DNA of 33,160 bases from a bacterium (GTDB lineage: Bacteria; Bacteroidota; Rhodothermia; Balneolales; M1805). The notes beneath the pieces were generated by a model, which was not told the DNA's origin, searched no databases, and saw only the letters and a list, made by a program, of their open reading frames with translations. A program made the translations under genes and the position numbers. This document shows positions 15,447 through 32,989 of this stretch, one piece after another. The stretch spans positions 1 through 33,160 of the forward strand of contig SBGQ01000095.1 in assembly GCA_006226965.1 (NCBI GenBank), read 5' to 3'. Each line of letters begins with the position of its first letter. Within the stretch, counting starts at the first letter, position 1.

Positions 15447-17084
15447 TTGAAAAAACGTACAATTTCAGGGCTGTTAATGGTATTAGCAGCCTTTTTTATC
15501 ATAGCAGCGGCGCGTTCCGATGTGTTTTTCGAGATAAAAAAGAACTTTAGCATCTTTAGTGATGTGTTTACGGAAGTATCGCTTCGTTATGTTGATGAGG
15601 TAGAACCGGGTTCGTTAATGAATACAGCAATTAATGCCATGCTGGAAATGCTCGACCCCTATACCGTTTTAATAAATGAAGGAGAAAATCAAGAGATAGA
15701 TATTATTACGACCGGGAAATATGCGGGAGTTGGTCTTGAAATTGGACTGCAACGCGGAGAAATGGTTGTGATTGCGCCAATTGAAGGGTATTCCGCTGAG
15801 CGTAAAGGCGTAAAAGCAGGAGATATTATTCTAGAATTGAACGGAATTGCGATAAAAGATTTGAATGAGAAAGCTATCGAATCACAGTTGTTTGGTGAGC
15901 CTGGTTCGTCCGTAATCATAAAAGTGAAACGATACGGGATTGAAAATCCGTTAGAATTTACGCTTGAAAGAGAGCGGATTGATGTGAAAAGTGTACCGTA
16001 TGCAGGCTTCATCAATAAAGAAAAAGGTTGGGTTTATATTCAACTGACACAGTTTTCTCAGCAATGTGCAGATGAAGTACGTTCCGCTTTGTTAGAGCTA
16101 AAAAATGAAAGTGAAATAACTGGAATAATTCTTGATTTAAGAAATAATCCGGGTGGTTTAGTCAATGAAGCTGTAAGTATTTTGGATTTGTTCTTGCCAG
16201 CGGGTGTTGAAGTTGTAACAATTAAAGGCCGTTTAAAGGACACCAATCAAAATTTTTATACCAATGTGCCGGCATTGTTTCCTGATACAAAATTAATTGT
16301 TTTACAAAATAACGGTTCGGCAAGTGCTTCTGAAATTGTTGCCGGTGCATTACAAGATTTGGACAGAGCAATTATTATGGGTGAGCGGAGCTATGGAAAG
16401 GGTCTTGTACAAACCATTCGCCCAATTGCTTATAACAATGCATTAAAAATTACTTCTTCACGTTACTATATTCCAAGTGGAAGAAGTATTCAATCGTTAA
16501 AATACAGCCACTTAGAGCGAAACGAAGTGGAAAATATTCCGGATTCACTCCGAAGCATATTTAAAACAAAAGCAGGCAGAACTGTTTATGACGGAATCGG
16601 AATTGAACCGGATGTTGCCATGAATGATAGGGAGTTTGCTTTACTGGAAGTGGCTTTATTGAAAGACTCTTATTACTTCTATTTTGCGAATGAATATGTG
16701 GCAAAAAACGACACGATAACCGCAGACCTTGTGAAATCTAAAGTGTACGATTCTTTCAAAACCTATTTAAAAGAACAGAATTTTAGCTATGAATCTGAAG
16801 CTGATTATAATCTTTCTCAGTTAAAACAGAGTTCAAATTGGGCGAAAGAAGATTTGAAAATGATGGAATCATTAGAAAAAGCCATCAATAAGCAAAAAGA
16901 ACAGCAATTTGATAGTTTAAAAGCGTATATCCAGTTTCAGTTGTTCAGAGAAATTTCAGAAAGATATTTAACAAACGAGCAGTTTTACCCTGAAATGTTG
17001 ATTCGCGATAAATATGTAAATCAGGCAAAACAATTATTGGAAAATCCAGCGAAATATCAGTCATATTTAAGCGTGAGCAACTAG
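15447..17084 (+). CDS. S41-family C-terminal processing protease (CtpA-like)
   Basis: A 545-residue periplasmic serine protease anchored by an N-terminal hydrophobic segment (about residues 8-22). A PDZ domain (about 90-175, KYAGVGLEIGLQRGEMVVIA onward) selects C-terminal tails. The catalytic dyad is Ser293 in SASASEIVAGALQD and Lys318 in GERSYGKGLVQ, at the 25-residue spacing seen in Prc. LDLRNNPGGLVNEAV (230-244) is the conserved S41 core. The start is a TTG one base after the MltD-like stop; the first in-frame ATG (residue 11) would split the membrane segment. It probably degrades or matures exported proteins and may regulate murein hydrolases such as its neighbour, as Prc does in E. coli; that is analogy. 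Confidence 0.93.
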   Translation: MKKRTISGLLMVLAAFFIIAAARSDVFFEIKKNFSIFSDVFTEVSLRYVDEVEPGSLMNTAINAMLEMLDPYTVLINEGENQEIDIITTGKYAGVGLEIGLQRGEMVVIAPIEGYSAERKGVKAGDIILELNGIAIKDLNEKAIESQLFGEPGSSVIIKVKRYGIENPLEFTLERERIDVKSVPYAGFINKEKGWVYIQLTQFSQQCADEVRSALLELKNESEITGIILDLRNNPGGLVNEAVSILDLFLPAGVEVVTIKGRLKDTNQNFYTNVPALFPDTKLIVLQNNGSASASEIVAGALQDLDRAIIMGERSYGKGLVQTIRPIAYNNALKITSSRYYIPSGRSIQSLKYSHLERNEVENIPDSLRSIFKTKAGRTVYDGIGIEPDVAMNDREFALLEVALLKDSYYFYFANEYVAKNDTITADLVKSKVYDSFKTYLKEQNFSYESEADYNLSQLKQSSNWAKEDLKMMESLEKAINKQKEQQFDSLKAYIQFQLFREISERYLTNEQFYPEMLIRDKYVNQAKQLLENPAKYQSYLSVSN

Positions 17085-30583: not shown

Positions 30584-30597
30584 TTCAAGCAATTTAT

Positions 30598-31827
30598 ATG
30601 CTCATTAATACATTCACCCGAGTAGCGGCTTTGTTCGCTCTCGGGTTTTTTATTTCTTGTAGTACGCCAAAAGAATATCAAGCAATTGCCGATGCTATAA
30701 ACGCTGGCCAATTGGATAATGCTATTCGTTTAGCGGATGAGACAATCGCAAAACAGCCTAAAAAAACGGATACGTATTTTTATCATGCTTTTGCATTAAA
30801 TGAGAAAGCCAGAAAAACAGTAAATGCATACGATAGATTCCCAATTTATCAGAGTATGATGAAATCGCTGGCTGAAGCAGAAGCAAGATGGCAAAAGGAA
30901 AAACGCTCATCAAAAATTAGACAGTTGCACGAGTTGCAATACGAAGCGTGGACGAGAGAGTATAACGAAGCTATTCGATTAGTTGCCGCTAACAGAAATA
31001 AAGAACTAGATGATTGGTTGGCTGTTTATGAAACCACTGAAAATGCTCAACTTATCATTAAAGATTCATTAAGCATTATTCCGCCACAGATAGAAGCGCT
31101 TGCTGCAATGGAAGATTGGAGAGGATTAGATTCTGTAATGGTAATTTATGAGCCTGTTTTAGGAAAAAAAGATTGGTTTGAAATTAGAAATATTCAAAAG
31201 GCAGTACGAAACGGAAATATCGATAAAGCACAAGCACTTTTAGATAAATCACCCAATTTGAAAACACCTAATGATTTTGTTGCAATCGTGTTAAATGAGC
31301 AGGTTGATTTGCCGACATTGATAAACAGTTTAGCCGAGTTTTCGGGTAAAGGAAAACCTTCGCGAGGATTTTATTTGTTAACAGCTCATGTGTTATGGGA
31401 GAGTATCGTTGCACAAACGGAATCTGATACTACCGTTTTGAAGAAGTTTTATACTTCATTTAGTATAAATCAAGACCAATGGGAGATAGATTCAACTGAT
31501 GTGTTAAGAAAGGCTAGTATTATAGATAAATCCGTAAGCTCAATAGATGCAAGTAATATGGATCAATATCTGACACATACAAAAGCCATTTTATTCACGA
31601 ATATCGCATCAAAATTAATCGAAGACGAAAAAAAATTGGGTTTGATGGATAATCAGGTTTCTGATGACGCATACTATTTTTTAAAGAAAGCCGCTCCAGA
31701 GTGGACGCTGTTAATTTATCAGTTTAAAGTAAGTCAAGTTGAGTCTGCTTACACCTTAATTCAGATTTACGATTGGATGGATGAAACCTATCGCAGAGAT
31801 GAGCTCAAAAAAGAATTTAATTTTTAG
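30598..31827 (+). CDS. Lipoprotein paralogous to the preceding TPR lipoprotein
   Basis: A 409-residue protein with lipoprotein signal MLINTFTRVAALFALGFFIS and Cys21. After it, IADAINAGQLDNAIRLADET is TPR-like, and EKARKTVNAYDRFPIYQSMM plus AWTREYNEAIRLV match the corresponding parts of the upstream gene (EQAKSIANPEERMQIYEQM; MWANEHNSGVKLV). The rest is helical but more divergent and lacks clear repeats. The ORF begins 14 bases after the previous stop. Codons 7-19 coincide with a terminator-shaped hairpin (see 30616-30655). No later start would keep the signal peptide. It is followed 16 bases later by the gamma-synthase-like gene. Function unknown. Confidence 0.85.
   Translation: MLINTFTRVAALFALGFFISCSTPKEYQAIADAINAGQLDNAIRLADETIAKQPKKTDTYFYHAFALNEKARKTVNAYDRFPIYQSMMKSLAEAEARWQKEKRSSKIRQLHELQYEAWTREYNEAIRLVAANRNKELDDWLAVYETTENAQLIIKDSLSIIPPQIEALAAMEDWRGLDSVMVIYEPVLGKKDWFEIRNIQKAVRNGNIDKAQALLDKSPNLKTPNDFVAIVLNEQVDLPTLINSLAEFSGKGKPSRGFYLLTAHVLWESIVAQTESDTTVLKKFYTSFSINQDQWEIDSTDVLRKASIIDKSVSSIDASNMDQYLTHTKAILFTNIASKLIEDEKKLGLMDNQVSDDAYYFLKKAAPEWTLLIYQFKVSQVESAYTLIQIYDWMDETYRRDELKKEFNF
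30616..30655 (+). terminator. Intrinsic terminator-like hairpin inside signal-peptide codons
   Basis: ACCCGAG (30616-30622) pairs with CTCGGGT (30640-30646), and AGCG (30624-30627) pairs with CGCT (30636-30639), with one bulged T and an eight-base loop; TTTTTT follows the last G. This is a textbook intrinsic terminator, yet it lies within the first 20 codons of 30598-31827, 32 bases after the stop of the upstream gene. Confidence 0.75.
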
Positions 31828-31843: not shown

Positions 31844-32989
31844 ATGAAATTTAATACCAAAACCATTCATGCCGGTCAGCATGCTGAAGAAACGAGCGGT
31901 GCTGTTATGCCTCCGATTTTTCAAACATCAACATATGCTCAGTCTTCGCCTGGAGTTCATAAGGGACACGAATATGCTCGTGTGACCAACCCAACTCGAC
32001 ATGCACTAGAAGCCTTATTGGCAGGTTTGGAAAATGCAGAACATTGTGCGGCTTTTGGCAGTGGATGCGGTGCAATGGATGCAGTTATGAAAACTTTACG
32101 CCCGAATGATCACGTAATTGCATCAAATGATTTATATGGCGGTTCATATCGTTTATTCACTAAAGTGTTTGAGCCATTTGGTATTCAGTACAGTTTTGTA
32201 GATATGACCGACTTAAACGAAGTTGAAAAAGCAGTAAAATCCAACACAAAACTTATTTGGATAGAAACACCAACCAATCCATTGTTATCTGTTGTTGATA
32301 TAAAAGGCGTTGTTTCAATTGCCAAGAAATCCAGGATTTTTACCATTGTTGATAACACATTTGCATCACCTTACTTACAGCGTCCTTTAGAACTCGGTGT
32401 TGATGCTGTAGTGCATTCAACAACCAAATACATTGGCGGACACAGTGATGTTGTTGGTGGAGCTGTTCTGAGTAATAACGCTGCATTTATGGATGACATT
32501 CGTTTTCAAGTAAAAACGAGCGGAGCTATTCCCGGACCAATGGATTGTTATTTATTACTTCGAGGTGTTAAAACCTTAGCATTACGTGTGCAAAGAAGCT
32601 GTGAAAATGCCCATAAAATTGTAGAGTTTTTAGTGAATCACCCAAAAGTTGGTCATGTAAATTATCCGGGTCTTAAAAATCATAAAGGCCACGAAATTGC
32701 AAAAGCTCAAATGGATGATTTTGGTGCAATGATTTCGTTTACATTGAAAAATGATTCCATTGAACATGCGTTCACATTTATGAGCAATACACATCTGTTT
32801 ACACTCGCAGAGAGTTTGGGCGGAGTCGAATCTCTAATTTCACATCCGGCTTCTATGACTCATGCTTCCATTCCAAAAGAAATTCGAGAAGCTGCAGGAT
32901 TAAAAGATTCCTTAATTCGTTTGAGTGTAGGAATTGAAGATGCCAATGATTTAATCGAAGATTTGGAAAAAGCGTTTAAAAAGGTGTAA
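31844..32989 (+). CDS. Cystathionine gamma-synthase/lyase-type PLP enzyme
   Basis: A 381-residue Cys/Met-metabolism PLP enzyme of the transsulfuration family. MKFNTKTIHAGQ is the usual start; GHEYARVTNPTRHALE (41-56) is the N-terminal active-site segment contributed to the neighbouring subunit. SGCGAMDAVM (73-82) binds the PLP phosphate, and HSTTKYIGGHSDVVGG (191-206) carries the PLP Lys195. AESLGGVESLISHPASMTH near 325-343 is the conserved C-terminal substrate-binding motif. Synthase (cystathionine from O-acyl-homoserine), lyase and methionine gamma-lyase cannot be separated by eye, so no symbol is given. The frame is open to 31781, but the ATG at 31844 fits the family start and avoids overlapping the lipoprotein gene. 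Confidence 0.92.
   Translation: MKFNTKTIHAGQHAEETSGAVMPPIFQTSTYAQSSPGVHKGHEYARVTNPTRHALEALLAGLENAEHCAAFGSGCGAMDAVMKTLRPNDHVIASNDLYGGSYRLFTKVFEPFGIQYSFVDMTDLNEVEKAVKSNTKLIWIETPTNPLLSVVDIKGVVSIAKKSRIFTIVDNTFASPYLQRPLELGVDAVVHSTTKYIGGHSDVVGGAVLSNNAAFMDDIRFQVKTSGAIPGPMDCYLLLRGVKTLALRVQRSCENAHKIVEFLVNHPKVGHVNYPGLKNHKGHEIAKAQMDDFGAMISFTLKNDSIEHAFTFMSNTHLFTLAESLGGVESLISHPASMTHASIPKEIREAAGLKDSLIRLSVGIEDANDLIEDLEKAFKKV

Follow-up and report, generated by a model that had tools for sequence, protein, structure and literature searches.

A terminator-shaped hairpin conserved within a lipoprotein signal peptide of Balneolales may set the ratio of two tandem paralogues

The window analysed here, that is, the whole stretch of 33,160 nucleotides (contig SBGQ01000095.1, assembly GCA_006226965.1), contains two lipoprotein genes in tandem, followed by a gene for a PLP-dependent enzyme of Cys/Met metabolism (Table 1). 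Orthologues of gene 1 are present across the order and the class. Gene 2 matches gene 1 weakly (26% identity, E 6e-6) and, judged by this match, is a distant paralogue of it. The gap between the two genes has a median of 23 nt in 94 relatives (range -8 to 119 nt). The enzyme gene begins 16 nt past gene 2, and in most relatives examined it is the next gene after gene 1 or gene 2. Between 29000 and 33160, none of the Rfam covariance models (riboswitch, T-box, other) gave a match at E<=1.

Table 1. Genes and sequence elements around the junction of the two lipoprotein genes (window coordinates)
Feature	Position	Strand	Basis
Gene 1: TPR-repeat lipoprotein, 436 aa	29273..30583	+	ORF; Pfam TPR families down to 2.7e-19
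Intergenic gap, 14 nt, gene-1 stop to gene-2 start	30584..30597	+	sequence
Gene 2: tandem paralogous lipoprotein, 409 aa	30598..31827	+	ORF, ATG at 30598
Gene-2 signal peptide and lipobox, MLINTFTRVAALFALGFFISC	30598..30660	+	translation
Terminator-shaped stem-loop	30616..30646	+	RNA fold; covariation and synonymous tests over the order
U-tract TTTTTTATTT (T6ATTT)	30646..30655	+	sequence; T6 at 30646-30651, directly after the stem
Downstream gene: Cys/Met metabolism PLP-dependent enzyme (cystathionine gamma-synthase type)	31844..32989	+	PF01053, E 4.8e-152

Codons 7 to 18 of gene 2 fold into a hairpin that lies inside the translated frame, its stem starting, in the window, 33 nt past the gene-1 stop. 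The 5' arm (30616-30622 and 30624-30628) is interrupted by a bulged T at 30623 and separated from the 3' arm (30635-30646) by a loop (30629-30634); ACCCGAG, the U bulge and AGCGG face UCGCU and CUCGGGU in 12 pairs, of which the one next to the loop is G-U. The original prediction had placed an 11-pair stem in codons 7 to 19, with six T after it; the additional pair is the wobble, and the T6 is where it was said to be. The energy of the hairpin is -18.6 kcal/mol (z -5.8), and none of 200 shuffled sequences folded as well. The element has what is expected of an intrinsic terminator: a stable GC-rich stem-loop, a U-tract directly after it, and a location at which the upstream gene should end. It was not reported by a consensus terminator scan, probably owing to the bulge.

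The genome-wide background for this hairpin consists of a scan of the window and a pattern search. When the window was scanned for hairpins with a T-rich tail, the embedded hairpin was among a few sense-coding hits, and the only stronger one, in coaBC, had a poorer tail. A gapped pattern of the hairpin shape occurs once in the 3.78 Mb genome, at the gene-2 start, and a pattern scan of the genomes of 84,980 species gave four matches, all at the gene-1/gene-2 locus. Two other hairpins of the window were considered as like cases. One, in the signal peptide of an S41 peptidase (15467-15491, + strand), has a T6 and an energy of -14.2 kcal/mol, about 20 nt past the stop of the preceding gene; it is absent in about 28 relatives, is probably due to chance, and was not kept as a second embedded terminator. 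The other (1249-1294, - strand) is strong, at -25.8 kcal/mol, and lies some 90 nt inside coaBC, downstream of an rpoZ-like gene. Of 23 relatives, about half have related stems that outdo synonymous recoding (z of -2 or below); with its stem partly conserved and its T-tract poor, it was likewise set aside.

A search of genome contigs with the gene-2 protein as query gave no match, and a profile of gene 2 found family matches in genomes throughout the order Balneolales. Whole gene-2 proteins of the order share merely 16-20% identity with that of the window. The comparison spans families, the source genome being the sole member of its family in the set. Hairpin and T-tract were found within the gene-2 frame at 99 of the 100 gene-2 junctions read (one of them weak), in at least 27 genera and five families; since the genomes are related, these counts are not independent events, and thinning to one genome per genus changes little. 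The clear hairpin is kept at 98 of the 100 junctions, as the original prediction required of relatives that retain the protein. In G015 the hairpin is weak (-7.8 kcal/mol), in G120 the gene is kept with an eroded stem, only an inner stem of six pairs being left, apart from the T-run, and in G123 the T-tract is interrupted. Erosion in G120 and weakness in G015, in genomes that keep the gene, indicate that the element is not indispensable.

The stem starts 15 or 18 nt past the gene-2 start codon in 80 of 95 genomes, its distance from the gene-1 stop has a median of 41 nt and is at least 27 nt in 87 of 94, and the 12 nt following it contain 6 to 10 T (95 genomes). The signal peptide mostly reads T-R-x-x-...-G-F-F or G-I-F-F, with T7, R8, A14, G16, F17 and C21 among the few (nearly) invariant columns of the gene-2 family. 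Some genomes have extra codons inside the hairpin, and there the stem is lengthened to match.

The question arises as to whether the hairpin could be a by-product of chance, or of selection acting on the protein only. The repertoire of residues in signal peptides is small, and hairpins can arise by chance, as did the unconserved one in the S41 peptidase (15467), probably. However, under synonymous recoding of the signal peptide the median energy is -5.8 kcal/mol, against -19.2 for the natural sequences, and in 93 of 95 genomes the natural sequence outdoes its recoded versions (p<=0.01). A control stretch 90 nt downstream gave no effect in the same test. Covariation was analysed in 76 distinct hairpins of equal length, with 14 pairs each. 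Natural partners are paired in 91% of cells, compared with 22 to 45% when one arm is slid along the other and at most 82% when partners are shuffled. Both sides have changed in 10 of the 14 pairs, with 111 such cells against no more than 46 in shuffles. With one sequence per genus (22 genera), 91% of cells are still paired, and about 35 are double changes, against no more than 18 in shuffles.

Pairing is also reflected in the protein. The residue after the Arg and the residue before the Gly share 1.11 bits of mutual information, a value that in 5000 shuffles never exceeds 0.56. Phe (TTC) before Gly accompanies Met, Ile or Thr (ATN, ACG) after Arg; Leu (CTN) after Arg goes mostly with Ala (GCC), and Tyr, Phe or Leu (TTN) mostly with Ile (ATC). 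This residue coupling is what base pairing between the two codons predicts. Across Balneolales, to judge from these alignments, RNA pairing dictates which amino acids are permitted at these signal-peptide positions. The synonymous-codon test, the covariation, the residue coupling linked to pairing and the stems lengthened through codon insertions together refute an origin by chance or by protein selection, which we consider so improbable that it can be left aside. The comparison supports the view that selection acts strongly on the hairpin as an element with the shape of a terminator.

For the U-tract, the count of T is uninformative as a general synonymous test, because the Phe-rich residues yield T anyway. 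Codon choice is more telling in the group of genomes in which a single base stands between the stem and T8 (GGG-N-T8): the Phe codons of the U-tract are TTT in 67 of 67 cases, and those elsewhere in the same gene pieces in 40 of 53 (formal p of about 6e-9, a value weakened by relatedness). By this measure the U-tract is selected, at least in the GGG-N-T8 group. In some clades its first Phe codon is TTC, which interrupts the tract (GGGTTCTTT), and in others T8 is unbroken; this difference may represent a tuning of read-through. As the tract is interrupted in those clades, and also in the window (TTTTTTATTT), the efficiency of the element may be modest.

How could a terminator-shaped element have come to lie within a signal peptide? 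Gene 2 is absent from all 11 class-level loci outside the order, and at eight of them a terminator-like hairpin is found within about 50 nt of the gene-1 stop, mostly before the PLP-enzyme gene; no terminator was seen at L146 and L151, and none near the gene end at L152. Inside the order, gene 2 is missing from genus g9, where gene 1 is followed by a plain terminator outside coding sequence. In the gene-1 tree this genus is nested among holders of gene 2, beside two that have it, which suggests that gene 2 was lost there secondarily, with the terminator still present. Two reduced genomes of about 1.5 Mb (G128 and G127, loci L235 and L236) have a thiolase-like gene directly after gene 1, and neither gene 2 nor a terminator. 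In most relatives without gene 2, the gene-1 terminator is found at the site of the embedded hairpin.

The scenario that we propose, as part of an explanation that we hold to be probable as a whole, is that the signal peptide of a tandem paralogue came to overprint an old gene-1 terminator. Ancestral gene 1 would have had an ordinary non-coding terminator, upstream of the Cys/Met-metabolism gene. Gene 2 would then have come to lie between the two, starting ahead of the terminator, which would thereby have become translated, and selection would have preserved the translated terminator across the order.

Another possibility is that the hairpin acts on the mRNA, where it would protect or define a processed 3' end of gene 1, or slow the early translation of gene 2 for membrane targeting. 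Hairpins can mark processed 3' ends, and a stable stem 15-18 nt past the start would affect the first translocation steps. However, the T-tract directly after the stem, the preference for T at synonymous sites in the GGG-N-T8 group, and the plain terminators at the same place in genomes without gene 2 all argue against this, and we regard a role at the mRNA level as very improbable.

The probable function, as we see it, is that of an intrinsic (Rho-independent) terminator of gene 1 that doubles as the signal peptide of gene 2 and sets the ratio of gene 1 to gene 2. To the structure, selection, covariation, position and evolutionary history described above, this adds termination itself, a fraction of read-through, and a ratio set without a translational switch, all of which we infer. 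Most gene-1 transcripts would stop in the U-tract, and a minority would run through into gene 2 and the genes beyond. As the gene-2 start precedes the terminator, every complete gene-2 mRNA must have passed the latter, wherever the promoter lies; if the element does terminate, the gene-2 to gene-1 ratio would thus be set by read-through. Translation of the terminator would be tolerated, the start codon lying 15-18 nt ahead of the stem and the lipobox directly past the U-tract. At such a distance from the start codon, the stem begins roughly where a ribosome at initiation ends, so that initiation need not be blocked. A point against termination is its cost, as a terminated mRNA would bear a gene-2 start without a stop codon.

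Gene 2 might also have a promoter of its own inside the end of gene 1, in which case the hairpin would mainly attenuate that transcript. Little is known of the kinds of promoter used in this phylum, which leaves some room for such a promoter. However, no sigma-70-like site was found near the junction, and the Bacteroidota-type -7 motif TAnnTTTG occurs at chance frequency, with the nearest + strand copy about 250 nt upstream of gene 2. We consider such a promoter distinctly unlikely. Moreover, transcripts from it would still meet the terminator, so that it would add to the explanation by a gene-1 terminator, and not replace it.

The remaining question is that of translation. In a translation-dependent attenuator, ribosomes finishing gene 1 would re-initiate on gene 2 and hold the stem open, thereby allowing read-through, and gene 2 would depend on translation or growth rate. 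The proximity of the gene-2 start to the gene-1 stop (median gap 23 nt) would permit such coupling, strict conservation of a stem inside coding sequence could mean regulation, and coupled ribosomes can suppress terminators located in coding sequence in other settings (PMC5021804, PMC4824070). However, in E. coli, a stem at a distance of over about 27 nt from the preceding stop codon gives near-maximal termination, and in the construct W48 the lambda tR2 terminator, placed 30 bp past the start codon of a second ORF, is efficient, the ribosome still lagging behind the polymerase at that point (PMC4824070). If the E. coli coupling rules are assumed to be valid for this phylum, the stem would be unrepressed, its distance from the start being 15-18 nt and that from the gene-1 stop, in 87 of 94 genomes, 27 nt or more. 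In addition, the gap varies from -8 to 119 nt, which indicates that coupling is not conserved, and no control codons are seen. As regards the features of an amino-acid leader attenuator (trp/his type), the signal peptides contain no run of control codons, and inspection of the leaders by eye showed no anti-terminator. We view the translation-dependent attenuator as unlikely; re-initiation could matter, with a low probability for a regulated version. Of the attenuator first proposed, relief of the stem by a ribosome on the signal peptide is not supported, given the efficiency of E. coli terminators at such distances (PMC4824070). What stands is a selected, terminator-shaped element that could set the ratio of the two paralogues, a role well supported by the comparison.

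A variant in which the attenuator codes for protein, and in which the way that gene 2 is first translated, or targeted to the membrane, feeds back on the completion of its own transcript and of the genes behind it, seems to us rather unlikely. If it were true, terminated gene-1 mRNAs would carry a stopless gene-2 start and draw ribosome rescue.

Several known systems resemble this arrangement in part. Like intrinsic terminators in general, the element has a GC-rich stem-loop with an immediate U-tract just past the end of a gene; unlike ordinary, non-coding ones, it is translated in the next protein and kept by the choice of codons and residues. In the E. coli ampC attenuator, a start codon lies just upstream of the terminator, with possible ribosome interference. 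There, the start belongs to a start-stop pair in the leader before ampC, whereas in Balneolales it is that of the structural gene itself. A termination hairpin is mentioned for bmpAB of Borrelia (PMC10319736). The bmpAB genes are tandem lipoprotein paralogues, and the hairpin in their transcript lies between them; in Balneolales, by contrast, the hairpin is in signal-peptide codons and conserved across the order. The attenuator of the E. coli pyrBI leader (pyrL) is similar in that its terminator lies within a translated frame, near the start (PMC4824070, PMC5021804). In pyrBI, however, the frame is that of a short leader peptide and coupling at pause sites brings relief, whereas in Balneolales it encodes a structural gene's signal peptide, and relief is not indicated: with this geometry, by the E. 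coli rule, a coupled ribosome would arrive at the stem too late. W48 has the same succession of gene, short gap, start codon and terminator in the first codons, but is an artificial construct, with neither conservation nor a pair of paralogues. In the open-licence literature we found no precedent for a terminator conserved inside a signal peptide, which does not prove that none exists.

If the reading as a gene-1 terminator is correct, some 40 bases serve, throughout the order, both as a terminator and as a signal peptide, two elements that are normally separate. Annotation tools that bar terminators from coding regions, or that shift start codons past them, would err at such loci. The locus would also offer a natural test of terminators within the first 100 bases of a gene, which have been studied mainly with E. 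coli constructs. Finally, it suggests how a duplicated gene pair can hold a fixed expression ratio.
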